DNA of 64,000 nucleotides from Onchidella celtica (Eukaryota > Mollusca > Gastropoda > Systellommatophora > Onchidiidae): assembly GCA_963931925.1 (NCBI GenBank), contig OZ007579.1, forward strand, positions 53,748,757-53,812,756, read 5' to 3'. Positions 4,881 to 42,200 of the stretch are shown one piece after another. The position numbers were made by a program, and so were the translations under genes. A model generated the notes under the pieces. It made no database searches. It was given only the letters and a program-made list of their open reading frames with translations, and had not been told where the DNA came from. Within the stretch, counting starts at the first letter, position 1, and every line of letters starts with the position of its first letter.

Positions 4881-7800
4881 AGTAAAAGGAAACCAAATCA
4901 GTTTCAGTAACGAACTCCTACGCGAAGGTCAAAGTCTAAGTTGAAAAATGTAGACAACGTACTTTTATTCCTTGCTATCAAGACACAATTTAAAGTTTTC
5001 ATCATGTGAATTACTTGGAACCAACTGCTTATAAAAGAAAGGCCTTCTTTCAGACAAAAGCCTTATGTGACTGCAACACTAAGCATTTTGAGTTTCAGTA
5101 ACGAACTCTCACCCGTGACACCCAAAATGTACGACCCTGATCGTGCCATCTAAGTTTTTGGTCTTGATGTTCAAATGTAATCAAAATTTTGTTGCATTCA
5201 ATTTTACGAACATCAGTCAACTGACATCAATGTGTGCTTTCAGATCCGGACTGCCGTATGTTATTGCAACACTAAGCATTTCGAGTTTCACTAACAAACG
5301 CCCACGTGAAGATCAAAGTCCACTGAAAGCTATGATCGTAATTTTATTTCTTGCTACACAGCACCAAAACAAGCTTTAATAATGTGAATTAGTTGAAACC
5401 CAATGACAACAAAAGAAAAGCCTTCTTTCAGATTGGCAACGGCCGTGTGTTACTGCAACACCAAACATTTGGAGTTTCAGTAACGAACTACCATGTGGAG
5501 TTCAAAGTCTACATTGAAAAAAATGTAAACGCACTTTTATTCCTCACTACCAGGTCACAATTTAGTTTTCATAATATGAATTACCAGAAACCAGCATATT
5601 ATAAAACAGAGGTCTTCTTTCAAATCGGCAAAGGCAGTATGTGACTGCAACACTAAGCATTTCAAGTTTCAGTAACGAACTCTCCCGCGTGACACTCAAA
5701 ATGTATGACTCTGATCGTGTCATATAAGTTTTTGGGTCGTCATGTTCAAATGTAAAAATTTTATTGCATGCAAGGTTACTAACATAAGTGCAACTGATAA
5801 ACATGTGTTCTTTCAGATCCGGGCTGCCGTACGTTAATGCAACACTGAGCATTTCGAGTTTCAATAACGAACGCTCACGTGAAGCTCAAAGCCTATTGAA
5901 AAATGTGGTCCTACTTTAAATTTCTTGCTACACGGCACCAAATCAAGTTCTGAAAATGTGAACTATTTAAACCAAATCACAACAAAAGAAAAACGTTCGT
6001 TGAGATCGGCAAAGGCCGTGCGTTACAGCAATACCAGACATAACCAGTTTCTGTGACGAACTTCCACAAAGATTTTACATTTCAACGTCAGTCAGGCAAT
6101 CTAAATATTATGCCTTAATTCACTTCAGCAAAATTAATATTTTTTCTTCATAAATGAAAAGTTATTAAAACCAGATAGTGGGCCATCGGTCTTTAGATGG
6201 GCGGTAGCCGTATGCCATTGAAACACAAAACATTTCGGGTTTACGTTACGGACATCCATTGATGTTGTCATCCAATTTAGACTTATGATCACATCATTGT
6301 AGGAAATTTGTATTTTCAATTTGTGTGACAGACACAAGTGACACATTACGAATTTAATGTACAACAGGGTACCGTTTATTGATTTTTTCCCTCCCGGTAT
6401 GCAGTGCGTTATTAAACACCATGCAATACGTGTTGCCGTAACGAACTCCAGATGTTACGAATCTGGTCTGGGTGGTAGTGCCCTCTAGCTGTTATGAAGA
6501 GGGTCTTCTCAATGATGGTATTATGACTGCATTTTAAATCGAGAGGTATTTAATATTTAATCTTCCGTACCATGCCACACACTAAGAACAATCTGAATAA
6601 GTTTCATAAACAGACCTGCAGGGCCACAACTTTAATTACATTAATTACCCTAACAATTTTGGTCTAGATCTATTACATAGTAAAGACAACATCAGCAGCA
6701 TCAAATCTAAATTCAATAATATGTCACTAGAAGTCTTCTCTAGATTCCTATAATATTATGATAATTCTGACTCACTAACAATTTAAGTACTAATTATATA
6801 TCTCTCAGATATAGTCTGCCTACTATCTATTAATCAATATACTAATATGGTCTCTGGCGACGATGTCATCTCAGCTATTTGTGCCTACCGCTTATAATGG
6901 ATCGAGCTCGTCAATATAAACTGACGTAGTTAAGTCTAGAGATCTACTCTAGGATGGGCTGGCAATCCCCAGCCTCATCCAGACAAATCAATCCCAATTC
7001 ACAGATGTGTATGCCAAACATTCATACTAGTTGCAAGTCAATATAAATCTTTGTCTTGCATTCTTGGGTAGCACTCCTAGTATATGCGGCTATCCTGTCC
7101 TACTGGATAAATTATGTTCAGCTCCTCGTTCATTGTTGAATCATCAAAGGACAAACACTTACGCTTGGTCCCTGGTGTTAGAAAACCAGGGAACAGTGGA
7201 CAATAGCAGTGGGCATATCTCATTCAAGCATATGGCTTCCTCTCAAATGTCTATATTGGACTAGACATGAAATCGAACGGAATTATGATTCTTCAGGCAG
7301 AATCGTGCCGACGCCTGCACAGATTGGAGTTTTCTGTATGGAGTAATGGACATAGGTATGGCTACACTTTTATACTGTGCAGCCACCTGCAAATTACCGT
7401 CCAAATCCTTAGATTTGATTGGTGCATCCATGCGAGCTCATCTCGCAGTATTAATATATTCTACGTGGGAGTTGGTCACGGCCTTGTACTAAAACAGACA
7501 AGGTCAATTTAAAATGTCAAAACAATTACTGAAATCTTTAAACCCTCGTGCTTTCTACATTTTATGTACGAATTTCTGAACGCGACTAAGCGTCTTAAAC
7601 TATCTATCCTTATTCACCCCTTCTCTTCCCTTCTAAGTGTTCATCAAAATCACGGGGTCGAGAATTGCACTGTCACTCCTAACTTATCCATTTATTCTAT
7701 CTCGCCCCACTTTCTTTCCATCTCTAAGAAAAAGTGTTTCAAAAACAAACTGTTCACGAGAACAGTTCAAGGACAAAATTACGCTGGTTATAATCAACGA

Positions 7801-8064
7801 GACCGTGAAAAATCAACTCCTTGCAAGTCGTGACCCAGCACGGCAATTATAGCACTTAAACCCTGACACCAGATGTAGCTACCGGGAAATAATCCAGTCA
7901 AGTTCAATATCAGGGCATTGGATGGGGTGATGGACAATCATGGGAAAGATATCCGCTGAGCGAAAGTCGTCTTTTAAATGCAAGAAATAAAAAAAGTCTG
8001 TTTACATCACGGCGTTCGTCACGTAAACACAACACCTTGTAGGGTTTCAATAACGCACGCACCA
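4881..8064 (+). repeat. Degenerate ~191-bp tandem array, split by a solo LTR
   Basis: Anchor GTTTCAGTAACGAACTC and variants start at 4901, 5092, 5285, 5474, 5666, 5858, 6047, 6239, 6432 and 8044. Spacing is 189-193 bases throughout; the last interval is 191 once the 1416-bp LTR and its 5-bp duplication (6453-7873) are removed. Units also share a CTTTCAGATC..G..GTATG.ACTGCAACAC segment. At least ten copies, all well diverged. Confidence 0.75.
6453..7868 (-). mobile_element. Solo LTR, 1416 bp, CCAGA target duplication (family A)
   Basis: Starts TGTTACGAAT, ends CCCTGACA, and is flanked by CCAGA at 6448-6452 and 7869-7873. It interrupts the 191-bp array in perfect phase. Related sequence in reverse orientation lies at about 58450-60392. 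Orientation is inferred loosely from relatives. No gag/pol frames: it is a solo LTR or similar nonautonomous element. Confidence 0.8.
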
Positions 8065-9683
8065 GTGTAGCGATCTTCCCCGACTCGTCGCGCTGACCAT
8101 TTGGCAGGTTGCCAAGAAGTGTTTACACGGACTAGACCCCTATTATGTTTAAGGTCAAGGCGCTTGATTTCCATTTTGCAAGTTTTTACACACATGTGAG
8201 AGTCTGTTCGTTATTAAACACGAGGGCAAATATGAAAAAAATCGTTGTTTTGACCTGAAATAATACGTACACCGTGCATTTCTGGTTTTTTAGCGCACAT
8301 CTGATTCTCGCTGGATCCCACAGTCTAATAAATTCATTCTATATTGAAATTGCACATAGTTCAGTAAGGAAGTGGGTGTACGTTATTTGAGTGATAATAA
8401 ACACTAAACTTACCCATCGACTTGTTGCCGTTCTGCTCCATATCCGTTGGAAGTGTTATGTCACATTTGAGATCACCTAATCAGCTCTTGAAAATTCACC
8501 CGCGGACCTATCGCGACCGCATGCTTCGAGCCGAACGGCCACTTAACAGCAGCGTACGTTACCGGTTATAAACACGATGACGAGTCTGCTGACTACCTGG
8601 CTCTGTAGGACAAAGACGGGCCACGTGCGTGATTCCGTTCTTTGTGTGAAGACAAAGGGGCTATTATGCAATAAAAATCACGCCGCGATTTAAGTCCAGG
8701 GGTCAGAAATTCACGTTTCCAGCAGAAAGCATCATGTTGACAAAAGTTAACACCAAAAGTAACGTACGAATGGTGATCTTTTGACCCCGCCATACACACT
8801 CCTTGCCGAGAGAAGGGGCTAGCGTGCCACACAGACATTTAGACTGTTATATCAGGATTGCTGTGGCCTGTTAACATTAAGTGTCAAGGTCTCCAGTTTT
8901 ATGGAATATAGCTTTGATCATAACACCCCTAAAAATGTCACACTTTTTGTTAAAAAATCTCGATCCATCCACCCACATTACATTCCAATAGAATAATTAT
9001 ACATAGCTTTTAGAAGACACAGAGGATGTGAATGGAAAGATACACCATTTGTGCATCATTTTTACCCTTTTCTGTTGACAAACAAGTATTCTGTAGGATA
9101 ACAGACGAGGGACAAATAGATTGGTATGGTGAAAACACCAGTGTACAGCAAATCAGATTTTGACCCATATATAGAATAGATTACAATTACAGATGATTTA
9201 AAAAAACATTTTTTATGATGATTCAGAAAATGAAAGAAAACACACACACCAAAAACAACAATAACAAAGTTCTTTTGTCTTCCCCAGTTTATTGGTGACT
9301 GTGAGCTCACCAAAGCAAAGGAGTTTTTTTTTGTTAATTGTCACATGTTGATTTACAGGCAATTTCATTTCAGTGTTGATTGTTCTGTAGAAAATGTGAT
9401 CATTGTCTGAGATGTCATTGGTCAGCTGGTCAGAGAAACGATTAGACTTTATCTCTGTTTATTGTTAGATTCACATATAAAGCAACAAACTTTGATCACA
9501 CAATCTATATGGATTGTCATTATAAGAGTAGCTACCCAAATTACAAGTGAATGTTGGAGAAGAAGAGTATTCAAACAATTCCTTAACAAAACACCCACTC
9601 ACAGCTTAATCTAGCTTACTGCCGTTATTACATTGTGACAACTGTAATATCTGATGCCACACCCGCAATTGTCTGTGTTCCAG
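8065..9683. other. DNA upstream of E1, probably intronic
   Basis: Should belong to the intron before E1 if upstream exons exist in or left of the window. I looked for the conserved N-terminal ACOX blocks (Arg-rich RRxE and DPDF-like) and did not see them. The weak pyrimidine tract and gttccag acceptor of E1 are at its right end. Confidence 0.4.
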
Positions 9684-9838
9684 AACGCTATGTGACAAGC
9701 ATCCATTTGAAATTCACTTTGCTGCATTTATACCAACCATTGAGAAATTGGCATCAGAGAGTCAGAAAGCCAAGTGGTTGCCTTTGATAGCCAGTTACCA
9801 GATGATTGGTACCTATTCTCAAACGGAGCTGGGCCATG
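9684..9838 (+). CDS. ACOX1: ACOX exon E1 (first visible), FAD/substrate region ending in TELGHG
   Basis: Acceptor is gttccag before 9684; the exon opens with one base completing a codon, holds 51 codons and closes with one base of a Gly codon. It reads through [13 protein letters not shown] and [13 protein letters not shown], matching the ACOX block just before the beta domain; the Thr of TELGHG is an FAD-contact position by homology. The donor is CATG|GTAGGT. The last 13-14 exonic bases plus about 31 intronic bases form the first unit of the 45-bp array that follows. Other reading frames over this stretch are artefacts of the array. Confidence 0.93.
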
Positions 9839-12800
9839 GTAGGTAGTCAGTTGATTTGGCTTGTAGAGGAGAGCTGGGCCATGGTAGTTAGTCAGTTGAC
9901 TTGGCTTGTAGAGGGGAGCTGGGCCATGGTAGGTAATCAGTTGACTTGGCTTATAGAGGGGAGCTGGGCCATGATAGTTAGTCAGTTGACTTGGCTTGTA
10001 CAGGGGAGCTGGGCCATGGTAGTTAGTCGGTTTACTTGGCTTGTAGAGGGGAGCTGGGCCATGGTAGTTAGTCAGTTGACCTGGCTTATAGAGGAGAGCT
10101 GGGCCATGGTAGTTAGTCAGTTAATCTGGCTTATAGAGGGGAACTGGGCCATGGTAGGTAGTCAGTTGACATGGCTTGTAGAGGGGAGCTGGGCCATGGT
10201 AGGTAGACAGTTGACTTGGCTTACAGAGGGGAGCTGGGCCATGGTAGGTAGTCAGCTGACTTGGCTTGTAGAGGGGAGCTGGGCCATGGTAGTTAGTCAG
10301 TTGTCTTGGCTTGTAGAGGGGAGCTGGGCCATGGTAGTTAGTCAGTTGACTTGGCTTGTAGAGGGGAGCTGGGCCATGGTAGTTTGTCAGTTGTCTTGGC
10401 TTGTAGAGGGGAGCTGGGCCATGGTAGTTACTCAGTTAACTTGGCTTGTAGAGGGGAGCTGGGCCATGGTAGTTAGTCAGTTGACTTGGCTTATAGAGGG
10501 GAGCTGGGCCATGGTAGTTAGTCAGTTGACCTGGCTTATAGAGGAGAGCTGGGCCATGGTAGTTAGTCAGTTGACCTGGCTTATAGAGGAGAGCTGGGCC
10601 ATGGTAGTTAGTCAGTTGACCTGGCTTGTAGAGGAGAGCTGGGCCATGGTAGGCGGACAGTTGACTTGGCTTGTAGAGGGGAGCTGGGCCATGGTAGTTA
10701 GTCAGTTGACTTGGCTTGTAGAGGGGAGCTGGGCCATGGTAGTTAATCAGTTGACTTGGCTTGTAGAGGGGAGCTGGGCCATGGTAGTTAGTCAGTTGAC
10801 TTGGCTTGTAGAGGGGAGCTGGGCCATGGTAGTTAGTCAGTTGACTTGACTTGTAGAGGGGAGCTGGGCCATGGTAGTTAGTCAGTTGGCTTGGCTTGTA
10901 GAGGGGAGCTGGGCCATGGTAGTTAGTCAGTTGACTTGGCTTGTACTGTCATAGAGGGGAGCTGGGCCATGGTAGTTAGTCAGTTGACTTGGCTTGTACT
11001 GTCATAGAGGGGAGTTGGGACATGGTAGTTAGTCAGTTGACTTGGCTTGTAGAGGGGAGCTGGGCCATGGTAGTTAGTCAGTTGACTTGGCTTGTACTGT
11101 CATAGAGGGGAGCTGGGCCATGGTAGTTAGTCAGTTGACTTGGCTTGTACTGTCATAGAGGGGAGCTGGGCCATGGTAGTTAGTCAGTTGACTTGGCTAA
11201 TAGAGGGGAGCTGGGCCATGGTAGTTAGTCAGTTGACTTGGCTTGTAGAGGGGAGCTGGGCCATGGTAGTTTGTCAGTTGTCTTGGCTTGTACTGTCATG
11301 GAGGGGAGCTGGGCCATGGTAGTTAGTCAGTTGTCTTGGCTTATAGAGGGGAGCTGGGCCATGGTAGTTAGTCAGTTGACTTGGCTTGTAGAGGGGAGCT
11401 GGGCCATGGTAGTTAGTCAGTTGACTTGGCTTGTACTGTCATAGAGGGGAGCTGGGCCATGGTAGTTAGTCAGTTGTCTTGGCTTGTACTGTCATAGAGG
11501 GGAGCTGGGCCATGGTAGTTAGTCAGTTGTCTTGGCTTGTACTGTCATAGAGGGGAGCTGGGCCATGGTAGTTAGTCAGTTGTCTTGGCTTATAGAGGGG
11601 AGCTGGGCCATGGTAGTTAGTCAGTTGACTTGGCTTGTACAGGTGAGCTGGGCCATGGTAGTTAGTCAGTTGTCTTGGCTAGTAGAGGGGAGCTAGGCCT
11701 TGGTAGTTAAGGCCTGTTTACACTGGTAGGTTTTAGGAATAGAAAAACGGAATCGAGGCCGTGGGGGAAGAACTCTCCTAGCTTTCCGATTTTTGCTTTC
11801 CGATTTCCCCCTCGAAACGTGGCTTGTTTACATTAGTCCGTTTTCTGAATGAGAAGCGATGCGCATTGTTTGTTTTGTTCATGTGAGTGGGATGGACGCT
11901 CCTGTGGCGGCCGCTGGCCTCCCACTCGTCGAGCGAAGGAAATGTTCGGTTCAGCATTTCAATGCATGAATGTGAAATTAATCTGATCTTTCAAGGCTTT
12001 TATCACTCACCAAAATTCCAAGGGCTTTAGTTCTCGTCTGCTTGTTATGACATGTGGGCGATTTAGTATCCCATAGACAGCTCTCGCCCTCATGAATGTT
12101 TGGGTGAAAGTTTCTTCGATAGGTCTACCGAACGCCATTACACCGAGGCGGTAGTCAGGTGACGCATAACCTTTCCGAAATTGGAATGAAAATAGGAATG
12201 GTCTTATTCCGGTGTTTCAGTGGGAAATCGGAAAGGAAATAGGAAAGGGTCGGATTCCATTCCGATTTCGAAACAGTGTAAACGCGACAGGCTTTCCGCT
12301 AGATTTTCTTTCCTTTTTTCTATTCCTAAAACCTACCAGTGTAAACAGGCCTTTAGTCAGTTGACTTGGCTTGTAGAGGGGAGCTGGGCCATGGTAGTTA
12401 GTCAGTTGACTTGGCTTGTAGAGGAGAGCTGGGCCATGGTAGGTAGTCAGTTGACTTGGCTTGTAGAGGGCAGCTGGGCCTTGGTAGTTATTCAGTTGAC
12501 CTGGCTTATAGAGGGGAGCTGGGCCATGGTAGGTAGTCAGTTGACCTGGCTTATAGAGGGGAGCTGGGCCATGGTAGTTAGTCAGTTGACTTGGCTTATA
12601 GAGGGGAGCTGGGCCATGGTATTTAGTCAATTGACTTGGTTTTTAGAGGGGAGCTGGGCCATGGTAATTAGTCAGTTGACTTGGCTTGTAGAGGAGAGCT
12701 GGGACATGGTAATTAGCCAGTTGACTTGGCTTATAGAGGGGAGCTGGGCCATGGTAGTTAGTCAGTTGACTTGGCTTGTAGAGGGGAGCTGGGCCATGGT

Positions 12801-15800
12801 AGTTAGTCAGTTGACCTGGCTTGTAGAGGGGAGCTGGGCCATGATAGTTAGTCAGTTGACCTGGCTTATAGAGGGGAGCTGGGCCATGATAGTTAGTCAC
12901 TTGACTTGCTTGTACAGGGGAGCTGGGCCATGGTGGTTAACCAGTTGACCTGGCTTGTAGAGGGGTCAGTTGACTTGGCTTGTACTGTCATAAAGGGGAG
13001 CTGGGCCATGGTAGTTAGTCAGTTGACTTGGCTTGTAGAGGGGAGCTGGGCCATGGTGGTTAGTCAGTTGACTTGGCTTGTAGAGGGGAGCTGGGCCATG
13101 GTGGTTAACCAGTTGACCTGGGTTGTTAGTCACTTGACTTGGCTTGTACTGTCATAGAGGGGAGTGGGCCATGGTAGTTAGTCAGTTGACTTGGCTTGTA
13201 CTGTCATAGAGGGGAGCTGGGCCATGGTAGTTAGTCAGTTGACTTGGCTTATAGAGGGGAGCTGGGCCATGGTAGTTAGTCAGTTGACTTGGCTTGTACT
13301 GTCATAGAGGGGGGCTGGGCCATGGTAGTTAGTCAGTTGACTTGGCTTGTACTGTCATAGAGGGGAGCTGGGCCATGGTAGTTAGTCAGTTGTCTTGGCT
13401 TGTACTGTCATAGAGGGGAGCTGGGCCGTGGTAGTTAGTCAGTTGTCTTGGCTTGTACTGTCATATAGGGGAGCTGGGCCATGGTAGTTAGTCAATTGTC
13501 TTGGCTTATAGAGGGGAGCTGGGCCATGGTAGTTAGTCAGTTGACTTGGCTTATGGAGGGGAGCTGGGCCATGGTAGTTAGTCAGTTGACTTGGCTTGTA
13601 GAGGGGAGCTAGGCCTTGGTAGTTAAGGCCTGTTTACACTGTTAGGTTTTAGGAATAGAAAAACGGAATCGAGGCCGTGGGGGAAGAACTCTCCTGGCTT
13701 TCCGATTTTTGCTTTCTGATTTCCCCCTCGAAACGTGGCTTGTTTACATTAGTCCGTTTTCTGAATAAGAAGCGATGCGCATCGTTTGTTTTGTTCATGT
13801 GAGTGGGATGGACGCTCGCGTGGCGGCCGCTGGCCTCTCACTCGTCGAGCGAAGGAAATGTTCGGTTCAGCATTTCAATGTATGAATGTGAAATTAGTCT
13901 GATCTTTCAAGGCTTTTATCACTGACTAAAATTCCAAGGGCTTTAGTTCTCGTCTGCTTGTTATGACATGTGGGCGATTTAGTATCCCATAGACAGCTCT
14001 CGCCCTCAAGAATGTTTGGGTGAAAGTTTCTTCGATAGGTCTACTGAACGCCATTACACCGAGGCGGTAGCCACGTGACGCATAACCTTTCCGAAATCGG
14101 AATGAAAATAGGAATGGTCTTATTCCAGTATTTCAGGTGGAAATCGGAAAGGAAATAGGAAAGGGTCGGATTCCATTCCGATTTCGGAAAAGTGTAAACG
14201 CGACAGGCTTTCCGCTAGATTTTCTTTCCTTTTTTCTACTCCTAAAACCTACCAGTGTAAACAGGCCTTTAGTCAGTTGACTTGGCTTGTAGAGGGGAGC
14301 TGGGCCATGGTAGTTAGTCAGTTGACTTGGCTTGTAGAGGGGAGCTGGGCCATGGTAGTTAGTCAGTTGACTTGGCTTGTAGAGGGGAGCTGGGCCATGG
14401 TAGTCAGTCATTTGACTTGGCTTGTAGAGGGGAGCTGGGCCAGGGTAGTTAGCCAGTTGACTTGGCTTGTAGAGTGGAGCTGGGCCATGGTAGTTACTCG
14501 GTTGACTTGGCTTGTACAGGTGAGCTGGGCCATGGTAGTTAGTCAGTTGACTTGGCTTGTAGAGGAGAGCTGGGCCATGGTAGGTAGTCAGTTGACTTGG
14601 CTTGTAGAGGGCAGCTGGGCCTTGGTAGTTAGTCAGTTGACCTGGCTTATAGAGGGGAGCTGGGCCATGGTAGTTACTCAGTTGACCTGGCTTATAGAGG
14701 GGAGCTGGGCCATGGTAGTTAGTCAGTTGACTTGGCTTATGGAGGGGAGCTGGGCCATGGTATTTAGTCAATTGACTTGGTTTTTAGAGGGGAGCTGGGC
14801 CATGGTAGGTAGTCAGTTGAGCTGGCTTATAGAGGGGAGCTGGGCCATGGTAATTAGTCAGTTGACCTGGCTTATAGAGGAGAGCTGGGCCATGGTAAGT
14901 AGTCAGTTGACCTGGCTTATAGAGGGGAGCTGGGCCATGGTAGTTAGTCAGTTGGCTTGGCTTGTAGAGGGGAGCTGGGCCATGGTACTTAGTCAGTTGA
15001 CTTGGCTTGTAGCCAGAGGGGAGCTGGGCCATGGTAGTTAGTCAGTTGACTTGGCTTTTAGAGGGGAGCTGGACCATGGTAGTTAGTCAGTTGACTTGGC
15101 TTGTACTGTCATAAAGGGGAGCTGGGCCATGGTAGTTAGTCAGTTGTCTTGGCCTGTACTGTCATAGAGGGGAGCTGGGCCATGGTAGTTAGTCAGTTGT
15201 CTTGGCTTGTACTGTCATAGAGGGGAGCTGGGCCATGGTAGTTACTCAGTTGACTTGGCTTGTAGAGGGGAGCTGGGCCATGGTGGTTAACCAGTTGACC
15301 TGGCTTGTAGAGGAGATCTGGGCCATTGTAATTAGTCAGTTGACCTGGCTTATAGAGGTCAGCTGGGCCATGGTAGTTAGTCAGTTGACCTGGCTTGTAG
15401 AGGAAATCTGGGCCATGGTAGTTAGTCAGTTGACTTGGCTTGTAGAGGGGAGCTGGGCCATGGTACTTAGTCAGTTGACTTGGCTTGTACTGTCATAGAG
15501 GGGAGCTGGGCCATGGTCGTTAGTCAGTTGACTTGGCTTGTAGATTGGAGCTGGGCCATGGTAGTTAGTCAGTTGACTTGGCTTGTAGAGCGGAGCTGGG
15601 CCATGGTGGTTAACCAGTTGACCTAGCTTGTAGAGGAGATCTGGGCCATGGTTGTTAGTCAGTTGACCTGGCTTATAGAGGGGAGCTGGGCCATGGTAGT
15701 TAGTCAGTTGACCTGGCTTATAGAGGGGAGCTGGGCCATGGTAGTTGGTTGACCTGGCTTATAGAGGGGAGCTGGGCCATGGTAGTTAGTCAGTTGACCT

Positions 15801-18800
15801 GACTTTTAGAGGGGAGCTGGGCCATGGTAGTTAGTCAGTTGAACTGGCTTGTAGAGGAGACCTGGGCCATGGTAGTTAGTCAGTTGACCTGGCTTATAGA
15901 GGGGAGCTAGGCCATGGTAGTTAGTCAGTTGACCTGGCTTATAGAGGGGAGCTGGGCCATGGTAATTAGTCAGTTGACTTGGCTTGTAGAGGGGAGCTGG
16001 GCCATGGTAGTTAGTCAGTTGACCTGGCTTATAGAGGGGAGCTGGGCCATGGTAATTAGTCAGTTGACTTGGCTTGTAGAGGGGAGCTGGGCCATGGTAG
16101 TTAGTCAGTTGACCTGGCTTGTAGAGGAGTGGCTTGATCAGGCACAACTTAAAGTTCCATCCAAAATCAGAGCCAGATTTCAGAGTATTAAAACAGTGAA
16201 TCTGCCGAGGAATTGTCTTTACAATTTGTGTCTGTGAAATTAACAAAAAACAACACATAAAGCTACATTTTTATGTTGAACACCATAAAGTTTTTGATAA
16301 AGTGATCTTCTTCAGGTTGCAGATTGCAGAGTGTTATATTTGCCTGCATCCCTTTACATTTTAAATATAAAACAGGGGATTTTATGGCTGATTCTCATGA
16401 TCTGGTACAGTCTGACTATTGAATTTGCCACAGAAGTGTTTTTAACAACATTAAACTTTATGTACAAGAAGTTGGAGGTGTTTATGGCTGAAACACTCGT
16501 GATGGTGTTCGTATGGGTCAGCTTTTCACTATTAACAGAAACTTCTACTGGCATTCTGCCCTGCCTCTTTCCCCCACCTTGTTTATGTCTCACATGAAGT
16601 ATAAACTTTTGAGGTCACAGGTACGACATGCATTTGAAAAGCTGCAACATCAGAAAATTATTTGAAATACCTGAAGACAACTACAAAACCTATCAGGTTT
16701 CATCTCATGTTACACTCTTGACAAGGAGCAGTTGAACAATTGTCTCAATGTAGAGCACTTTGGTGTTGTCTGTTGTCATGAAAGATCTTACACTTACAAG
16801 GTGGTCTAGAGGCAAGGTGCTCGCCTCTCATGCCAAGGGTCCCGGGTTCTAAACCCGGGCAGTGCAGGCATGTTGGAAATTGGATTTTTCTCATATTTTC
16901 AAGTCCCTGGTCCTATTGGGGGGTAGGATCGAGTACCTAGTCTTCTCGGATAAGGACGAAAAAATTCGGAGGGCCCGTGTGCACGTTGCGCACGTTAAAG
17001 ATACCTTGGCAGTTGGAAATCGTAAAGAGCAGGCCGAAAGGCCGCTGCCCGGGCAAAATTGAAAATTGAAATTAATAGATTAAAAGTTATCCATATCACC
17101 CCCCCCCCCCCCCCCCCAGAATTTATTATTCATTATTAAATATATATTGTTATTAATAAATATTCAAATATTATTTGAGTTGTGTGTTGTGTGAATTGAT
17201 GTGAGTTGTGAACTGCTGTGAGTTGTGAACTGTTGTGAGTTGTGAACTGCGCCTAACAGGCTGCGTTACAATTTGCTCTGAGATAGAGAGAGAGAGAGTG
17301 AGCGAGACAGGGAGAGAAAAAGAAGCAGTGCAGTGTGTTGAGCGCTTCGCCGGCAGCTCCATTCTGCTCTGTGGTTGACATGTTGTTTCTGTAAAGCGCA
17401 TAGAGCATTTTAAATGGATATGCGCTATATAAATGCTATACATTATTATTATTTATTATTATTATTATTAAAATTGAATTTTAATATTTGTGAGTTTCAT
17501 TCAGTGTTAACCCTAACTCTAGACTCCATCTATTCTTTAAAGGGAGTTCTCAACACATTTCTATTTTTATTTTCAACCCTATTTTACATTTGGCTAGGGG
17601 GATGTTATGACGATGAGGCTTTTGTTGGGGGGAGCATGGTATTTTAGATTGTAAGCCGCTGTTGAAGAGTGAACACAACTTCGTCACTTCTCTATTTGGC
17701 TTTGTAAGTAGACTGTGGTCCTGTAACAACAGATGAAAAAAGTGAGTGTCTGGGGTCTGTCAGACCCGTGAATGTAAAATTGAGATTCCGAGTTCACCTA
17801 GCTTGAGCTTAAAATCCTTGTTTGTTTGTTCACTGTGTTCAGTTTTTCTGATAGTTCAATGTAACTTGCATTGAAAATCTATGGGGATGTGTCAAGACTG
17901 CCTAAAATGCTTGTAGTTGTTTGAAACATTCAGACTGACCACTTTGTAACATTTCCAGATGCCAGATGAAACCTCCTGATTGTATTTTGATCAAGGTTGG
18001 AGGGAAACGTGACTGAGACAAAACATGAACATAAAAATTTTAAGATGGCACAGAATGACCCCCCCCCCCCCCTTTTTTTTTTGTTTTCTATTGGACTAAT
18101 TTTTTCATCATTACAGGCTTGTTTGTTGTTGTTTTTTTTGTATCAGATTACTTGAGTCTGACAGAATGCCAAATTTTTTTGAGTCAACAAAGACCAAAAT
18201 TAAATTTGGAAAATATTATAAATCCATGAGACCTTACAGTATTCTTGTCAGTACAGCAGTGTATCAAACAGCCAATGTAGACATATTTCATTTCCAGTAC
18301 AACAGACTGAGTTTCAGAAATTTCAGACATTTAAAAACTCTCAGCCTGGATATAATTTTAAATATGAGTGAGAAACCTAAACTTGATACATTGATGCATT
18401 CAGAATATTCTGTTGGTTATGACAGGGAATGTAGATGTATTCTGTGAGACACATTCCAGAAGAGTGAAAAAAAAAAAAGAAGAGATTCGATTTCAGAATG
18501 TCCATGATGTGAAAGTTTTGTCATAACATTTGACACAGTTTTGATACAAGCTAGGTTGCTCAGCTAATGCTTTTGAGATTCACATTTTGGTACAGGAGCT
18601 CTTTCTTAAGTCAAGCCATTAGTTCCTGCTGTAGCAGTCGTGTAATGATATAGTATTCAGATGGTTGTTAATGGTGAACAAAATAATAGCAGTGAATAAA
18701 TAACTTTTTCTACTGTTTTTTGTTTGCTTGTTGTTTTACTTTTAAATAACAAAAATGTCACAGCTCTAAATGTATTTGGATTTACTAAACACATTAGTCT

Positions 18801-21800
18801 GGTCTTATGGGTAGGTCAGGGTGCTCTGAGAGCCATTGCCATTTTGTCATTCCACTAACTCCTCTACATACCTGGGATGTGTTTGTTCTTACTGGTCATA
18901 ACCTGATGGGGCAGGTTGGATGAAGAGAGTAACTGATAATTTTGTAGTTTTCTATAATTAATGAACAGGCCTTATCACCTGTTTGGTGCAGATTTCCCTT
19001 CACTTTGTGCACATGACAGTATTATGTAGTGGTTTAGATTAGGGAATGCCATCAGTCCTGCCAACACTACTGATTTTCTCAGGAGTTCTCCAGATTTGAT
19101 CACTGAGACCTCAGCTCTGTTATGTGTGGAATATTTGGATTTAGGCATGTCTTTGAGAAGAAACTAGGAAATTACTTCTGACTCTTCCGGTGGGCTGCAG
19201 TGTTGTTTTTAGATTAAAATCTGTGTTTGAAGGGGCAATATCACTTTTTACTTGGGCCAGATACACTCAGTCAGGTTAAGGTCTCAATTGTCGGGAGAAA
19301 ATCAAAGGAACTTGTTGCCCATACTTCCAAATGATGCAGTCCGTGTATTTAAAAATGTTTTTTTCAGTAGAACACCCAGTTCAACCTTTTTCATTCAAAT
19401 ATATGGAATGGTCCTGAAATCACTTTCATACAACTGTATGTTTTAAATGCATCACTGTTTTTACAAAACTGGTTTGGAAAATTGCTAATGTCCCCTGGAA
19501 ATGTGTTTGGGATGTCAAAAATAAACATTTATGCGATGTGCAAAGTTGCATTAAGGTGCCTGAAGTTGTGAAATTCAAGGACTTTTCCCAAACCGCTCAA
19601 GTTGGTGCTACTCAATCGTGTGGAACTGATATGTCTGCTTCAATCCACCAGGCAGTGGTGAAAAAAAGGGCGGGTGCGTTTATCTGAAATGTTTGGATTT
19701 GCATACATTTAAAAATTGACTCAAAACTGAATTATTTAGGACCGTTTTCTTTGAATCCTATTTGTCAGAGGTTTGAGAATGAGAATAGGGTAAGTTTTGT
19801 TGATGTGTGTGAGTGTGAGCATATTGAATTAATCTTATTTTCTGTCTAATTTGACTTCAGCGCCTTAGAGCACATCATTTTTTTTATAGTTAGTCCTGAC
19901 AATCATAGGATGCGGGTGATTGGTGGGCAATTCTGGCAGGCCTCAGTCTACTTTATCATTCTGCTGTATTCTGTCATCATCTCGTTTTTTCCTACCTCAA
20001 TATGGCCATTTTCGACGCGCTTTCATCAAACTCATTCAAACTCACAGGATCCTTCTTGCGAGGTCTGGAAACCACTGCAACCTATGATGTCAGGACAAAA
20101 GAGTTTATCCTGGACTCACCCACAGTGACATCATCCAAATTCTGGCCAGGAGGCTGTGAGTACCCAATAATACTAAAACTCATTTTCTTACAGCTCATTG
20201 TGTAGTTATGCTAGGGGGATTCAAGATCTTTGTTTCTGGAAGATTTCAGTCTCAGGCTGTTGACTTTGCTGTTCTTCATTTCATTTTTGTTCTTGATTAT
20301 TCCTTTATTCTATTCTTGTATGTCTTGTCTTGACTTGGTAGGTGTCAGGTAGACAGAGGCTAAGTAGGAGAGTGAAGAAAGTGAGGTTACCTATTTGCTA
20401 AAGGGAGCTAAGAGCTTGTCATCCTTCCACTCTCTCTTAGCCATTTTCAGGGACTGAATCCCTTTATTGCAAGTTGTGTACATGTAGGCCCCTATGTATA
20501 AGTTGTTATTTAAACAATAATAATATATTTAAAAAATAATATTTAAAACAAAATCAGTCAGTAAGTGATTGCATTTCTTTGCCGGGGCCTGCTTGGTGTG
20601 AGACCTTTTAGGCAGTTGTCTTCACCTTTTACTATCTGTCTGCTTAATGTTGATGGACAGGGGAGGGGCAGGATTCCGGAGTTTTAAAAGCAATACATGT
20701 ATTTGGTTCTTGGATCCATCAGTTCTACTTGGCAATGCCTTGACCTACTACCTGACAATGCCTTGACCTTTCCCTGCACAGAATGAAATTTTAAGGGATA
20801 TTTTTGAAAAAGTTGTATGGAGGAATGGAGGAAAGTTGTCCCCATATATCAGGCTGGATTGTCCCGTTGTATCAGACCAGATTGTCCCGTTGTATCAGGC
20901 TGGATTGTCCCGTTGTATCAGACCAGATTGTCCTGGTGTATCAGGCCAGATTATACCCCCGTCAGACTATATCTGGATTTAAAGTGGCCTAGCCTATTTC
21001 ATACCCCATGGTATATTCTGGGCTAAGCCAGTTTATACCTCGGGGTATACTATGGGTTAGGCAGACTTTACCCCACCAGTCCAGATTATATCCCCAATTT
21101 TTTATTTTAAACAAGTCAAAACCACAGTTTATTTCATATTTAAATTGTTCTTTATCACTGTCATCAAGTGTCGTATTAATACATCATACATTCTTGACTC
21201 CTGTAAATTATAATACATTTTTAGACTTTAGAGGAAATAAACAAGCATTAAAATGCATTGATGTACAAAGGGATTGAAAATTTTATTCAAATTAAATTGA
21301 TATGATTAAACTTTCTGTTGTGGATAAAGCTGATACAGACTTTGAAGTGCTAACTGAAGTATTTGTGGCAGATGATAAAAAAAAATGTATTATTTCTCTT
21401 TTGTGTAGTGGGTAAAGCTGATACAGACTTTGAAGTGCTAACTGAAGTATTTGTGGCAGATGATAAAAAAAAATGTATTATTTCTCTTTTCTGTAGTGGG
21501 TAAAGCTGATACAGACTTTGAAGTGCTAACTGAAGTATTTGTGGCAGATGATAAAAAAAAATGTATTATTTCTCTTTTGTGTAGTGGGTAAAGCTGATAC
21601 AGACTTTGAAGTGCTAACTGAAGTATTTGTGGCAGATGATAAAAAAAAATGTATTATTTCTCTTTTGTGTAGTGGGTAAAGCTGATACAGACTTTGAAGT
21701 GCTAACTGAAGTATTTGTGGCAGATGATAAAAAAAAAATGTATTATTTCTCTTTTGTGTAGTGGGTAAAGCTGATACAGACTTTGAAGTGCTAACTGAAG

Positions 21801-24800
21801 TATTTGTGGCAGATGATAAAAAAAAAATGTATTATTTCTCTTTTGTGTAGTGGGTAAAGCTGATACAGACTTTGAAGTGCTAACTGAAGTATTTGTGGCA
21901 GATGATAAAAAAAAAATGTATTATTTCTCTTTTGTGTAGTGGGTAAAGCTGATACAGACTTTGAAGTGCTAACTGAAGTATTTGTGGCAGATGATAAAAA
22001 AAAAATGTATTATTTCTCTTTTGTGTAGTGGGTAAAGCTGATACAGACTTTGAAGTGCTAACTGAAGTATTTGTGGCAGATGATAAAAAAAAAATGTATT
22101 ATTTCTCTTTTGTGTAGTGGGTAAAGCTGATACAGACTTTGAAGTGCTAACTGAAGTATTTGTGGCAGATGATAAAAAAAAAATGTATTATTTCTCTTTT
22201 GTGTAGTGGGTAAAAAACAGATTTGAAACTGCTCACTTCAGTATTGATGTTGAGTTAACCTGACACATTCATGAAGAAAATGTCTTGTTTGTTGTTGGTG
22301 CAGTGGGTAAAACAGCCAATTTCTGTGTGGTGATGGCCAAATTGATCCTGAATGGCAAAGACCATGGCATGCAGTCCTTCCTGGTTCAGCTGAGGGATTT
22401 GGAAACACACCAGCCCTTGCCAGGTAAGAGGCAGAGAGGATAGTGAAAGACTGGAATTTGCCAAATGGATATCTGCCATCTGTCACCTGTCATCACCTCC
22501 TGTTATCCACCTCGTGTCATCCACCACCTGTCATCCATCTCTTGTCATCCACTTCCTGTCATCCATCTCCTGTCATCCACTTTCTGTCATCCACATCTTG
22601 TAATCCATTTCCTGTCATCCACTTCCCATCGCTCCTGTCATCCACGTCCTGTCATCCACATCCTGTCATCCACATCCTTGCACCCACTTCCTGTCATCCA
22701 CAGCCTGTTATCCACCACCTGCCATCCATCTCCTGTTATCCACCTCCTGTCATCCACCTCCTGTCATCCCACCTCCCATTATCCACCACCTGTCATCCAC
22801 CACCTGCCACCCCACCACCTGTCACCCCACCACCTGTCACCCACCACCTGTCACCCACCACTTGTCACCCCACCACTTGTCACCCCACCACCTGTCACCC
22901 CACCACCTGTCACCCATCACTTGTCACCCCACCACCTGTCACCCACCACTCGTCACCCACCACTTGTCACCCCACCACCTGTCACCTACCTTCTGTTACT
23001 CCACCACCTGTCACCCACCACTTGTCACCCACCATGTGTCACCCCACCACCTGTCACCCACCACTTGTCACCCCACCACCTGTCACCCACCGCTCGTCAC
23101 CCACCACTTGTCACCCCACCACCTGTCACCCACCACTTGTCACCTAACACTTGTCACCCACCATCTGTCACCCCACCACTTGTCACCCACCTCTTGTCAC
23201 CCACCACCTGTCACCCACCACCTGTTACTCCACCACCTGTCACCCACCATGTGTCACCCCACCACCTGTCACCCACCACTTGTCACCCCACCACCTGTCA
23301 CCCCACCACCTGTCACCCACCGCTCGTCACCCACCACTTGTCACCCACCACCTGTCACCCCACCACTTGTCACCTACCACCTGTCACCCACCACTTGTCA
23401 CCCACCATCTGTCACCCCACCACTTGTCACCCACCTCTTGTCACCCACCACCTGTCACCCACCACCTGTTACTCCACCACCTGTCACCCACCACTTGTCA
23501 CCCACCATCTGTCACCCCACCACTTGTCACCCACCACCTGTCACCCCACCACCTCTCACCCCATCACCTGTCACCTACCACCTGTTACTCCACCACCTGT
23601 CACCCCACCACCTGTCGCCCCACCTTTCACCCACCTCATATCACCCACCTGTCACCCCACCATCTGTCACCTACCACCTGTCACCCCACCATCTGTCACC
23701 CACCACCTGTCACCCACCACCTGTCACCCACCTCATATCACCCACTTCATATCACCCACCACCTGTCATCCACCACCTGTCATTCCACCACCTGTCATCC
23801 CACCTTTTGCCATCCACCTCCTGCCACCCACCTGCTGTCACCCATCATTGAATGTGCTCCACAGGATCTAACTGGCCTTGCACATTTTGTTTCTTCATTT
23901 CACATGGGAGAGAGAGCCACATCCTGTCCATTTCATTCTCTTCTAGTTGGAAACTTGTAGAATGTATTTTGTTGTAATGGCAGTTTGTTGTTGTTGTTTT
24001 TTTGACTCAAGGAGGTCAAGTGACAAAGCCGATTAATTATCATTGTCTTATCCAGGTGTGACCGTTGGAGACATTGGCCAAAAATTTGGATTTAGTGCCG
24101 TAGACAACGGGTTCTTAAGGTTGAATAATGTCAGAATTCCACGTGAACAGATGCTCATGAGATATGCTCAGGTAATATTTTCTACAGTGAACATTCTCCA
24201 TATTGAACATTTCAGATAATAGGTAAGAGGAAAGGAGAGAAATTTCAAATCTTTGCTATTCATTGGGAAGATCATTCAGGGAGAATTCCTAGAAACCATT
24301 GCCAGCCACCTCCACTGTTTAGTTCACAGTCAAATAGAACTGAGGATTATTCTTTTTTATCAAAATAATTGAATAATTTTGAAAAACTTGTGTCACCAAG
24401 CCCTCTCTTTTTATGTGTGCAAAAACAAGGCTGTCATTTTTTCATTTTTATACAGTAGAACTTGGTTGTAACAAGAGGTTATGTTCCACCAAAAATGTCT
24501 TGTTATACCCGAGGTCTCGCTAGTCCAGGAAAGGATACAAAAAGGGAAGGCAAGGGATTAAAATACCCCATTATTTTTTATGGTTATCTCCCTTGATAGT
24601 ATGTCCCGTACATCAACATAAATAGAATATTAAATGGACAGCAGATCTGGGCGTTCATATCAGCACTGGTTTTTTTTTGTTTTGCTCTTTTTGTGCTGGC
24701 AATAGCCATGTTTTGATCAAATTACGAGAGACAGCTGCAAAGGTTAGGAAGAGATGAATACATTTGGTTTCTGGTGGTTCCTCGTGCTGTATCACACAGG

Positions 24801-36200: not shown

Positions 36201-39200
36201 CCTAACTTCCAAAAAGTTGGTTGATCCTGATGACAGAGAACGCTTACGTCTTTATCAGGGAAGGTAACATCTATTCTCGCCCGAATCTGGCAGCTCATGA
36301 GAAAAATTGTTAGGACCACAAGCACTTTAGCAGCGGCATTTGCATTGGATTGAAGCTTCAACAATGCTGTGATTAGCATGAGTCTCAGTTTCATCAATGA
36401 TTTCTTGAGGGTTCAAACCACCCTGTCGGCTTCGCCGTTGGTTCCTGGGTGATAAAGAATGCACTGGATATATGTTCAATACCAACCTTTTGCAAGCATA
36501 TACTTTTGGCCTTTTCCTAGGCCATCTTTGGAGAGGTAGTGACCCAAATATTTATGTGTGGCTGAGCAAAGAGGATTTCTCCAGTTTCGTCGTAGGCCTT
36601 GACCTTTGTCTTAAAGACGCTGGAGATTGTTCAGGTGCTGTAAGCTTACCAAGCTGTCATCTCTATAGACTCTGGGAATGTTTTCTTGGGGTGATCCATG
36701 ATTTCTTGAGAAAAGCTAAATGCTGGTGTGATGACAAACAGTGTTTTCTTTGATGAAGTTCGCCCCTATGAGTGCTTAGAGCCAGTTTACCTTGCTACTT
36801 CGGACTGAGACAGATCTGTTTACAAGTATCAGAATCTTCATGAAACCATGACCGTATCAAGATCTGCACATCTCGTTTTCCGGTATTGGCACTGGATAGT
36901 GATGAAGTTCCAGTTGACCAATGATTGTCTGTGCATAATCTCTGCAGATTCTGAAGTTAGTTCTGGTTTTTCCTGGGAATGTCTAGGTTCTTAAATGGTA
37001 TAAATGGAAAGTTGTAAAGGTTGAACTGAGTCAGCTGCCATGTGCCTCTATTAGTAATAGCTTGAAAAGTTTGGTCAAAGTGCTCTTGGGTGTTGATTTG
37101 GCACTAGGCGTGGTTTCAGGAAAATGAGTTCTGTATGGCTTTCATTGGTCAGTTAATAAAATCTGTGTTCAGACCATGGCAATGGTTTTATTGCCAGACT
37201 CTTTACTTAATATTGTTTGCTTTTGTCATCGTTATTGAGGGAGTGGAATGGAAGTGGCTTGTTCTTTTCTTAGAGGATTTTTTGGGGAAATTAGGCTTTC
37301 AGAGCTAGTTGCTGAAAGTTTGAGTCCTGCACCATTGTTCTGCCATATAATCAAAGCAAACCAAAGCTGGCCACTCCTGCTTTCCATTCATATAGCAGTC
37401 ACCATGCACAGCAACACCCCAAACCTTCTGCCATGGTTAGTGTTCAACTCAATACACTCATGAACCAACCATGCCACGGCACTTCTAGGGGACACAGTGG
37501 TCTAGAGGCAAGGTGTTCACCTTTCATGCCGAAGGTACCTGGTTCAAATCCCAGTCAGTGCTGGAAAGTTGGAATTTGGGGATTTTTCTCTTAGTTTCCT
37601 GTCCCTGATTATGTGGTAGGTAGGAGCCAACACCTAGAATACACAGATGTGATTTTTAAAGTCGAGTTTTGATCACCAGTCAGTGTGTAAATTGAGACTC
37701 AGAACGAAGTCTTGTTGGATAAGGATGAAAAATTTGGAGGGCCCGTGTAGGCCTACAAGTTGCACACGTTTAAAGATACTTTGGCATTTCTGAATTGAGA
37801 AGAGCAGGCCAAGCAGGCTGCTGCCCAGACAAAATTAAATAAAAAACTTATCCCTACCACTACCCCCACCCCCCATAAAAAACAACAACCCAAACCCGCT
37901 GGCCAGTGCTGCATTGTGGCGACGACGTGCCTGCTCCAGTTGTAACTGGGCTGCAATGACACAAAGCCAAATTTCCCAAATAGGATTAAAGAATATACAA
38001 GTACAAATACAAGTGCTGTTCTCTTTGGAAAGTACACAAATCTTAGAGAATAAACATTTTCCTAGTATATTTTACATTTCTGTAACTGAAAAACTTGACT
38101 TGATAGATTTCCTGTGTTACTGTACTGATACAGTAGATTCCCATGAACACAGATTTGAGGGAATTCTCCAAAACTTCATCTTATTAAGAATTTACATTAG
38201 ACGATGACATTTGAATATAAGGGAAATAACCCGATTAGTGAATATAAGGGAAATAACCCGATTAGTGTCAAGTTTCTCTCCCTTTGCCACAACAAGCGGC
38301 CATTGGAGCTGGCTACATGCATGTGGTGTTTTGGTGAGATAAAGTGGAAGTACGAAAGAAAGAATGAATAAATGGAATACAGTTCAGGAATGACAGCATG
38401 TGCGGCACCATAAATGTGCAATGTAGAATACTTGTGCCTGGCACATTCCAGTTTCTGGTCTGCCTTGCCCAGTCAGGGGCCAGACAAATCTCAGATGACA
38501 CGGCTGCTGCTAACTTACATACAGAGATAGAGGAAGGATTGATAATTTTTCCACATTGTCGTTAGTGAAGGGGACAGGGTACAGGTGGGAGTCAAAGGTC
38601 ATCCTGAAAAAAGCAAAAACGATAACTGATCCTGTTGCCTGGAGAAATGGAAAACTTAAATCCTGTTCACATAATCAAGTGCCTTGAATTTTTTGTTGAT
38701 GACAAATGATGTTATTTTGACTTCATGTAGATCTCAATAAATAAAGGAATAAATTCTGGGATATTGAGTTTGTGGCATGAGGGGATGTTTCATGTCAAGG
38801 GGAGGCTATCCATGTTCAATTAAATGCAGTCTGTTGTTTTTTTGCTGTGGATCTGACGTTATTGTCAGTGTGAGAATTTGTTACAGAGAAGATTTCTAAT
38901 GTCTTTGTACTGATAAATTTCTGCCATGGATTTGCCAGGTTTTTGATGAAATGTCAAGCAGCAGCTGCCAGAGGAGACAAACTTCCAAGTTTTATCAGTT
39001 ACTTACAAACAGCCAAAGGGGGCCAAAGTAAACTGTCAGAGAAGATGGAGTTGGATCACATCATTGCTGCTTATGAACACCGAGCGGCCAGGTAAATTGA
39101 CTGGACTGGACGATACTCATACCCTTTTCTTTAAGATTTTATTCTCTTTTGTGTTAAACATTTTGTCCTATGAATATTTCTTTCTTTTTTCTGTAAAACT

Positions 39201-42200
39201 ATTTTGTCCTATGAATATTTCTTTCTTTTTTCTGTAAAACTATTCTGTCCTATGAATATTTCTTTCTTTTTTCTGTAAAACTATTTTGTCCTATGAATAT
39301 TTCTTTCTTTTTTCTGTAAAACTATTCTGCCCTATGAATATTTCTTTCTTTTTTCTGTAAAACTATTCTGTCCTATGAATATTTCTTTCTTTTTTCTGTA
39401 AAACTATTTTGTCCTATGAATATTTCTTTCTTTTTTCTGTAAAACTATTCTGCCCTATGAATATTTCTTTCTTTTTTCTGTAAAACTATTCTGTCCTATG
39501 AATATTTCTTTCTTTTTTCTGTAAAACTATTCTGTCCTATGAATATTTCTTTCTTTTTTCTGTAAAACGATTCTGTCCTATGAATATTTCTTTCTTTTTT
39601 CTGTAAAACTATTTTGTCCTATGAATATTTCTTTCTTTTTTCTGTAAAACTATTTTGTCCTATGAATATTTCTTTCTTTTTTCTGTAAAACTATTTTGCC
39701 CTATGAATATTTCTTTCTTTTTTCTGTAAAACTATTTTGCCCTATTAATATTTCTTTCTTTTTTCTGTAAAACTATTTTGTCCTATGAATATTTCTTTCT
39801 TTTTTCTGTAAAACTATTTTGTCCTATGAATATTTCTTTCTTTTTTCTGTAAAACTATTTTGTCCTATGAATATTTCTTTCTTTTTTCTGTAAAACTATT
39901 CTGTCCTATGAATATTTCTTTCTTTTTTCTGTAAAACTATTTTGTCCTATGAATATTTCTTTCTTTTTTCTGTAAAACTATTTTGCCCTATGGATATTTC
40001 TTTCTTTTTTCTGTAAAACTATTCTGTCCTATGAATATTTCTTTCTTTTTTCTGTAAAACTATTCTGTCCTATGAATATTTCTTTCTTTTTTCTGTAAAA
40101 CTATTCTTTCCTATGAATATTTCTTTCTTTTCTCTGTAAAACTATTTTGTCCTATGAATATTTCTTTCTTTTTTCTGTAAAACTATTCTGTCCTATGAAT
40201 ATTTCTTTCTTTTTTCTGTAAAACTATTCTGTCCTATGAATATTTCTTTCTTTTTTCTGTAAAACTATTTTGTCCTATAAATATTTCTTTCTTTTCTCTG
40301 TAAAACTATTCTGTCCTATGAATATTTCTTTCTTTATTCTGTAAAACTATTTTGTCCTATGAATATTTCTTTCTTTTTTCTGTAAAACTATTTTGTCCTA
40401 TGAATATTTCTTCCTTTTTTCTGTAAAACTATTTTGTCCTATGAATATTTCTTTCTTTTTTCTGTAAAACTATTTTGTCCTATGAATATTTCTTTCTTTT
40501 TTCTGTAAAACTATTTTGTCCTATGAATATTTCTTTCTTTTTTCTGTAAAACTATTTTGTCCTATGAATATTTCTTTCTTTTTTCTGTAAAACTATTTTG
40601 TCCTATGAATATTTCTTTCTTTTTTCTGTAAAACTATTCTGTCCTATGAATATTTCTTTCTTTTTTCTGTAAAACTATTCTGTCCTATGAATATTTCTTT
40701 CTTTTTTCTGTAAAACTATTCTGTCCTATGAATATTTCTTTCTTTTTTCTGTAAAACTATTCTGTCCTATGAATTTTTCTTTCGTTTTTCTGTAAAACTA
40801 TTCTGTCCTATGAATATTTCTTTCTTTTTTCTGTAAAACTATTCTGTCCTATGAATATTTCTTTCTTTTTTCTGTAAAACTATTTTGTCCTATGAATATT
40901 TCTTTCTTTATTCTGTAAAACTATTCTTTCCTATGAATATTTCTTTCTTTTTTCTGTAAAACTATTCTGTCCTATGAATATTTCTTTCTTTATTCTGTAA
41001 AACTATTCTGCCCTATGAATATTTCTTTCTTTTTTCTGTAAAACTATTTTGTCCTATGAATATTTCTTTCTTTTTTCTGTAAAACTATTCTGTCCTATGA
41101 ATATTTCTTTCTTTATTCTGTAAAACTATTTTGTCCTATGAATATTTCTTTCTTTATTCTGTAAAACTATTCTGTCCTATGAATATTTCTTTCTTTTTTC
41201 TGTAAAACTATTCTGTCCTATGAATATTTCTTTCTTTTTTCTGTAAAACTATTCTGTCCTATGAATATTTCTTTCTTTATTCTGTAAAACTATTTGGTCC
41301 TATGAATATTTCTTTCTTTTTTCTGTAAAACTATTGTCCTATGAATATTTCTTTCTTTTTTCTGTAAAACTATTTTGTCCTATGAATATTTCTTTCTTTA
41401 TTCTGTAAAACTATTCTGTCCTATGAATATTTCTTTCTTTTTTCTGTAAAACTATTCTGTCCTATGAATATTTCTTTCTTTATTCTGTAAAACTATTCTG
41501 TCCTATGAATATTTCTTTCTTTTTTCTGTAAAACTATTCTGTCCTATGAATATTTCTTTCTTTTTTCTGTAAAACTATTCTGTCCTATGAATATTTCTTT
41601 CTTTATTCTGTAAAACTATTCTGTCCTATGAATATTTCTTTCTTTATTCTGTAAAACTATTTTGTCCTATGAATATTTCTTTCTTTTTTCTGTAAAACTA
41701 TTCTGTCCTATGAATATTTCTTTCTTTATTCTGTAAAACTATTTTGTCCTATGAATATTTCTTTCTTTTTTCTGTAAAACTATTCTGTCCTATGAATATT
41801 TCTTTCTTTATTCTGTAAAACTATTTTGTCCTATGAATATTTCTTTCTTTTTTCTGTAAAACTATTTTGTCCTATGAATATTTCTTTCTTTTTTCTGTAA
41901 AACTATTCTGTCCTATGAATATTTCTTTCTTTTTTCTGTAAAACTATTCTGTCCTATGAATATTTCTTTCTTTTTTCTGTAAAACTATTCTGTCCTATGA
42001 ATATTTCTTTCTTTTTTCTGTAAAACTATTTTGTCCTATGAATATTTCTTTCTTTTTTCTGTAAAACTATTTTGTCCTATGAATATTTCTTTCTTTTTTC
42101 TGTAAAACTATTCTGTCCTATGAATATTTCTTTCTTTTTTCTGTAAAACTATTCTGTCCTATGAATATTTCTTTCTTTTTTCTGTAAAACTATTCTGTCC

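Follow-up and report, generated by a model that had tools for sequence, protein, structure and literature searches.

A minisatellite that repeats an exon-intron junction in an acyl-CoA oxidase gene of Onchidella celtica, and similar arrays at other splice sites of the same genome

INTRODUCTION

Minisatellites that include a splice donor are already known as a kind, from the human genes ABCA7 and IFI6. The IFI6 (6-16) minisatellite, with its multiple splice donors, is said to have been described by Turri in 1995. The case closest to the present one is intron 18 of ABCA7, where a 25-bp minisatellite (a VNTR of about 12 to 427 units) includes the donor of exon 18; according to the available part of that article, skipping of exon 19 rises with VNTR length, and retention of a single unit is about 2% and independent of length (PMC5954066). 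In IFI6, repeat units behind an exon supply donors, and two downstream units are used, as described in the accessible text (PMC4526556). Among recently duplicated human genes, the available portion of one study gives minisatellites at exon-intron boundaries with a mean of 4 copies of 30 bp, some of them tied to novel introns (PMC2812944). Finally, the excerpt at hand on the potato RdRp gene describes how a new intron arose when a stretch spanning an intron-exon boundary was duplicated in tandem (PMC4974935).

Here we describe a much longer array of this kind, array A, in an acyl-CoA oxidase (ACOX) gene. Like the ABCA7 VNTR, it begins at the donor of an exon and its units repeat that donor. The ABCA7 VNTR starts at the donor GT, with no exonic bases named in the available part of the article, whereas each unit of array A contains 14 exonic bases; and the splicing effects of ABCA7 were measured, whereas the donor strengths of array A are predicted from sequence alone. 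The extra donors of IFI6 give three mRNA species in the text available to us, whereas any later donor in array A would lead to an immediate stop. The human boundary repeats, in the portion cited, have about 4 copies and some novel introns, against 107 copies in an old intron here. The potato duplication, as far as the excerpt goes, shares with array A that it spans a splice boundary and is absorbed by splicing, but it is a single duplication that made a new intron, whereas in array A an old intron was lengthened. As far as the literature searched extends, what is new is the presence of up to 28 exonic bases per unit, an array on the acceptor side, and the occurrence of three such arrays in a single gene and of a fourth in a different one. 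Open papers, searched by word, yielded none on exon-containing junction arrays recurring within one genome.

RESULTS

The ACOX gene

The window, by which we mean the whole stretch of 64,000 nucleotides that was analysed (G000:C13:53748757-53812756, from a 1.14-Gb genome), holds most of an ACOX gene on the + strand. Positions below are those of the window, and all exons, donors and arrays are given on its + strand. Eleven exons, a to k, extend from 9684 to 50563; their splice sites were read from the sequence, and when joined they give a reading of 545 amino acids. This matches the Pfam families PF22924 (E 2.5e-60), PF01756 (E 1.1e-55) and PF14749 (E 1.7e-9), while PF02770 reaches 28.9 bits, under its cut-off of 33.3. 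Among solved ACOX enzymes, the best match to exons a to c has an E of 1.2e-43. Two further coding exons were located upstream, before the start of the window, so that exon a, which the earlier note called E1, is not the first exon of the gene; the last coding exon was not found.

Exon a (9684-9838), which is supported by paralogous exons and by the ACOX matches, ends in ELGHG with a split glycine codon, and we take it to be the counterpart of exon 3 of human ACOX1. Its acceptor partner is exon b (20048-20155). The other exons needed below are exon c (22304-22423) and exon k (50357-50563). The end of the window is also the end of contig C13, and the region may therefore be subtelomeric; inspection of the last 600 bases by eye revealed no telomere-like repeat.

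Array A repeats the end of exon a together with its donor

Exon a ends in GGAGCTGGGCCATG/GTAGGT, where the slash marks the boundary after 9838. Array A starts at this 5' splice site and runs from 9825 to 16127. It consists of 107 units, mostly of 45 bp, with 17 of 53 bp, and its Tandem Repeats Finder score is 4304. Each unit is composed of 14 exonic and about 31 intronic bases, and unit 1 (9825-9869), which spans the exon end, is the real junction. The 106 spacings between units are 45 bp (82 times), 53 bp (17) and 691 bp (2), the remainder being 44, 78, 73, 49 and 41 bp, once each.

The earlier note had described a junction repeated 105 to 110 times behind the exon, with 13 to 14 exonic and about 31 intronic bases per unit and a GT donor behind every copied exon end. 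The count of 107, which includes the copy in the exon itself, agrees with this. The exact 14-nt exon end is present in 79 of the 107 units and the exact 13-nt GAGCTGGGCCATG in 89, and GT is kept at the donor position in 104 (103 of the 106 downstream ones). The figure of 6.3 kb given in that note is correct as the span, although the repeats themselves make up only about 5.0 kb of it, the array having two 643-bp transposon copies inside.

When the unit was compared with the 22 splice junctions of exons a to k, its own junction scored best, at 23.5, with the next at 10.5, and none of 500 shuffled units reached the score of the own junction. In the genome, at least 60 matches to the unit exist, and all of those listed lie inside this single array, which argues against an introner-like or otherwise dispersed element. 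The mean divergence among units is 7.7%, with variation of 2.8% in the exonic columns and of 5.1% in the intronic ones; these column statistics are for 100 of the 107 units and omit seven of odd length. The lower variation of the exonic columns is not predicted by plain neutrality. The coding strand of the array is G-rich, with a skew of 0.44; G-rich repeats on the coding strand favour R-loops and instability in other systems.

The intron is older than the array

An inverted, head-to-head paralog of the ACOX gene lies at about 53685745-53724437 of the same contig, on the - strand (loci L022, L027-L029 and L033). In local protein alignments, exons b to h and j are 88-100% alike between the two copies; the alignments of exons i and k extend beyond the exon and stand outside this range. 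Exon a is represented in the paralog by two tandem versions, a1 and a2, which are 55-58% alike to exon a of the window, and each gene copy seems to keep different versions of an alternative exon. The paralog has no counterpart of exon a of the window and the start of the following intron, segment P 7411-9743 being replaced in the window gene. With its different segment at this place, the paralog cannot serve as an outgroup for array A and does not show the state that preceded the array.

The homologous exons nevertheless indicate the direction of copying. The junctions of a1 (GAACTGGGTCATG/GTAAGG), a2 (GAACTTGGGCATG/GTAAGA) and an ACOX gene on contig C6 (GAATTGGGACATG/GTGAGT) all have the intron at the same position as behind exon a, and array A is absent behind all three of these exons. 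Behind a2, at a distance of 356 bases, there is a 20-bp array, but it is unrelated, and no long array was found at the C6 and C10 ACOX loci (10 kb each). The exonic part of the array A unit matches its own exon at 14 of 14 bases, a1 at 11 and a2 at 10. Because the homologous exons share the place of the intron, with other codons and without the array, it is array A that copied the exon end, and the intron is older. The suggestion of a tandem duplication across the splice site, followed by expansion, is thus well supported by a conserved coding end and by an intron at the same position, free of the array, in three homologous exons. Gain of the intron by tandem duplication (the AGGT model) is rejected, because all three homologous exons have the intron at that position.

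The reverse order of events was also considered, in which a minisatellite was in the intron first and its edge then reached the exon, so that array sequence overwrote the exon end. The identity of the exon end with most units (79 of 107) is compatible with this. However, the array would have needed to contain, by chance, in-frame codons for the conserved ELGHG and a donor after them; the coding sequence and the intron are older, as judged by the homologues; and the other arrays described below, arrays C and K and a myosin array, likewise contain their own exon edges. We regard overwriting of the exon as scarcely credible.

Transposon copies record part of the history of array A

An array unit holds, at 11710-12352, a 643-bp transposon copy; its inverted ends are AGGCCTGTTTACACTGGT and its target duplication is TTA. 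A second 643-bp copy lies in the same unit context at 13626-14268 (no strand is assigned to either). The TTA duplication suggests an element that is presumably of PIF/Harbinger type. With their flanks, the two copies are 96.6% identical over 700 bp without a gap, differing at 24 sites. This similarity, together with the common unit context, points to a single insertion, after which a block of about 1.9 kb of array A was duplicated and carried the second copy to its place.

In a repetitive region such as this, an error of assembly could account for the number of units or for the second copy of the transposon. Contig C13 ends where the window ends, and the window contains 48 Tandem Repeats Finder rows, both of which would be in keeping with such an error. 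Against it, the units differ from each other at many sites and the 45- and 53-bp forms occur in an ordered mix, while the transposon copies and their flanks differ at the 24 of 700 sites just given. An assembly error is therefore very unlikely, and the identity of the junction depends on the first units, independently of the count.

Most copies of the donor are predicted to be weak

Donor strengths are given as predicted U1 pairing, calculated with reference values. The genuine donor, GTAGGT at 9839-9844, has a predicted pairing of -10.4. The commonest form in array A, ATG/GTAGTT (69 of 107 units), lacks the G at +5 and is predicted at -4.8. Eight of the 106 downstream sites are identical to the first donor over all nine letters and one is predicted to be stronger (GTAAGT at 14895-14900, -10.7), the nearest of equal strength, at 9929, being 90 bases from the genuine donor; the other 97 are predicted to be weaker than the first or have lost the GT. 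The description of about 100 decoy donors was therefore an overstatement, given that the predicted pairing of the genuine donor is reached or surpassed at no more than 9 of 106 downstream sites. The +5 G is concentrated in units at the end next to the exon, with 5 of the first 10 against 6 of the 97 elsewhere (p=8e-4), the pattern that an ancestral real junction would leave.

Splicing from any later donor would bring an in-frame stop, TAG at 9844-9846. The immediate stop that had been noted is indeed there, read as GGT AGG TAG (9838-9846) in the first unit; the accompanying wording, which placed it in any unit and read GTAGTT there, was imprecise. The sequence implies, as had been claimed, that enzyme would be obtained only through the first donor. 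This donor is probably still the one used today, since it carries the +5 G missing from most copies and is closest to the exon, and the rest probably leaves as a 10.2-kb intron.

It could instead be proposed that array A controls splicing: the repeated weak donors would recruit U1 throughout the intron and so set how often splicing of exon a is productive, with the remaining transcripts going to decay via the TAG at 9844. Several observations fit such a role, namely the retention of GT in 103 of 106 downstream units, the nine sites predicted to be at least as strong as the genuine one, of which the nearest is 90 bases away, and the immediate stop after any later donor. There is also a precedent in the donor-including array of ABCA7, which alters splicing of the next exon according to its length, in the part of the article available (PMC5954066). 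The same source gives single-unit retention of about 2% in the tissues measured, constant with length, which speaks against such a role (PMC5954066). Moreover, the majority of copies are predicted to be weak, and array A is absent behind all three homologous exons. On balance we consider control of splicing unlikely, and the preferred reading remains that the copies are carried within the intron without effect.

Two further junction arrays in the same gene

Array C (21312-22303) is the mirror image of array A, at an acceptor. It has an 89-bp unit in about 10 copies and contains TGTGTAG/TGGGTAAA. In its regular part (21312-22206) the units carry TTTGTGTAG/TGGGTAAA, and the acceptor of exon c reads TTGGTGCAG/TGGGTAAA. 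The segment between them, 22207-22303, is a diverged last unit (score 29, against 11.5 for the best of 1000 shuffles), so that the real acceptor of exon c is the end of the last unit of the array. The units keep AG behind a pyrimidine-rich stretch (by eye), and splicing in from the nearest or second-nearest copy to exon c would run into stops. At least 27 matches to the unit are listed, and all of them lie in the two ACOX genes, with about 10 copies in the window gene and about 17 in the paralog.

Array K (50555-50996) has a 25-bp unit in about 17 copies and opens with the real junction, GAAACTCAG/GTGAGCGAG. Of 14 listed donor-like sites after the first, 12 retain GT but lack the AG on the exon side, and in two AT replaces GT; the predicted U1 pairing of the later sites is -4.8 or weaker, against -11.2 for the first. 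In the paralog array K is shorter and degenerate, with one unit, ACTCAGATGAG, nearer the junction (by eye). Copy number therefore changes, as array K is shorter in the paralog and array C has 17 copies there rather than 10. Only about 8 to 9 bases of the unit are exonic in these two arrays.

As with array A, the own junction ranks 1 of 22 for arrays C and K, and its score was reached by 0 and 1 of 500 shuffles respectively. Four other arrays, lying close to exons c, f, h and i, were compared in the same way. None of them matches its own junction best, the ranks found among the four being 2, 8, 10 and 16 of 22, so it is not the case that every array near an exon is a junction copy. A further array, of CATT, precedes exon k. 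Micro-exons inside the units were also considered and rejected, as they would be about 17 nt long with a poor polypyrimidine tract (by eye).

Arrays in this gene may tend in general to be close to exons. Between 9684 and 50996 of the window, 8 of 11 arrays in introns are no more than 100 bp away from an exon, a figure reached in 0 of 20000 trials of random placement in the same intron, and without arrays A, C and K the figure is 5 of 8 (p 0.00045); the 11 are longer arrays picked by hand, and the threshold of 100 bp was set after seeing the data. One of the arrays of the window is a 41-bp array of about 93 copies at 39142-42942, which has about 77 copies in the paralog, next to the same exon and about 95% alike. 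Another is a 14-bp array behind exon c (22484-23844); between the same exons the paralog has arrays with 14-bp and 30-bp units of other sequence.

A junction array in a myosin gene, and control loci

As a control sample, 20 of 76 matches to myosin exons were taken with 150-bp flanks. One of the 20 loci has a junction array. In this myosin exon (L074) the array starts in the exon, with the unit GGACATTGCAGGCTTTGAGATCTTCGAC/GTAAGTAATAGTA of 41 bp in 4.5 copies, made up of 28 exonic and 13 intronic bases; among the matches listed, the unit occurs at one place in the genome. Short repeats near four other loci (L070, L078, L080 and L083) are by eye not junction copies. The four donors in full copies of the myosin array are identical, so an array with few copies can do without weakened ones. 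The view that all decoys are disarmed is rejected as well, since the myosin donors are intact and the units of array C keep their AG (by eye).

Kinase loci were also sampled: 30, with 1.5-kb flanks, from at least 134 matches; some of the 30 may be single-exon genes. At these 30 loci there is no array scoring at least 150 across the edge of the match or of the reading frame. Near an edge there are eight short rows (score 43-62), each with about two copies, in seven of the loci, and the proximity of arrays to exons is not shown by the kinase loci. With 20 myosin and 30 kinase loci, the sample outside ACOX is small and gives no genome-wide rate.

DISCUSSION

We consider it likely, with good confidence, that array A began as a tandem duplication over a donor and then expanded as a minisatellite, harmlessly as long as the first donor was used. 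The seeding duplication would have had its left end 14 bases inside exon a and its right end 31 bases into an intron that was already old. A tandem duplication over a donor would give the order exon, donor, exon end, donor; with the first donor in use the mRNA would be unchanged and everything behind it would remain intron, while at an acceptor it is the last site that would have to serve. Unlike duplications within an exon, those that straddle a junction can persist and expand because the real outermost site is still used, and this is the most likely reason for their survival, judging from the arrangement of the sites. The extra copies would be free of coding constraint and may have grown to 107 units by unequal exchange or slippage; we infer that they are neutral. 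The array also received the transposon, which a later block duplication copied along with the units.

The myosin array, array K and, in mirrored form at an acceptor, array C probably arose by the same route. Read from its sequence, the myosin array shows an early stage of what would be the same process. A wider proposal, put forward tentatively and with somewhat less than even confidence, is that splice junctions are a recurrent birthplace of minisatellites throughout the genome, with duplications over an exon edge tolerated since the copies are spliced out, and with introns growing from both ends by copied coding sequence; some arrays may spread mainly as variants weakened for splicing, at the +5 G in array A and at the exon-side AG or the GT in array K.

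The health relevance of such arrays is shown by ABCA7. Array A raises the question of how the spliceosome chooses one donor among about 100 near-copies, and whether decoys must be weak in order to be tolerated. The arrays described here provide cases of introns lengthening by the copying of their own exon edges, at stages of 4.5, about 10, about 17 and 107 copies, and for these junction arrays the recent inverted paralog serves as a comparison.
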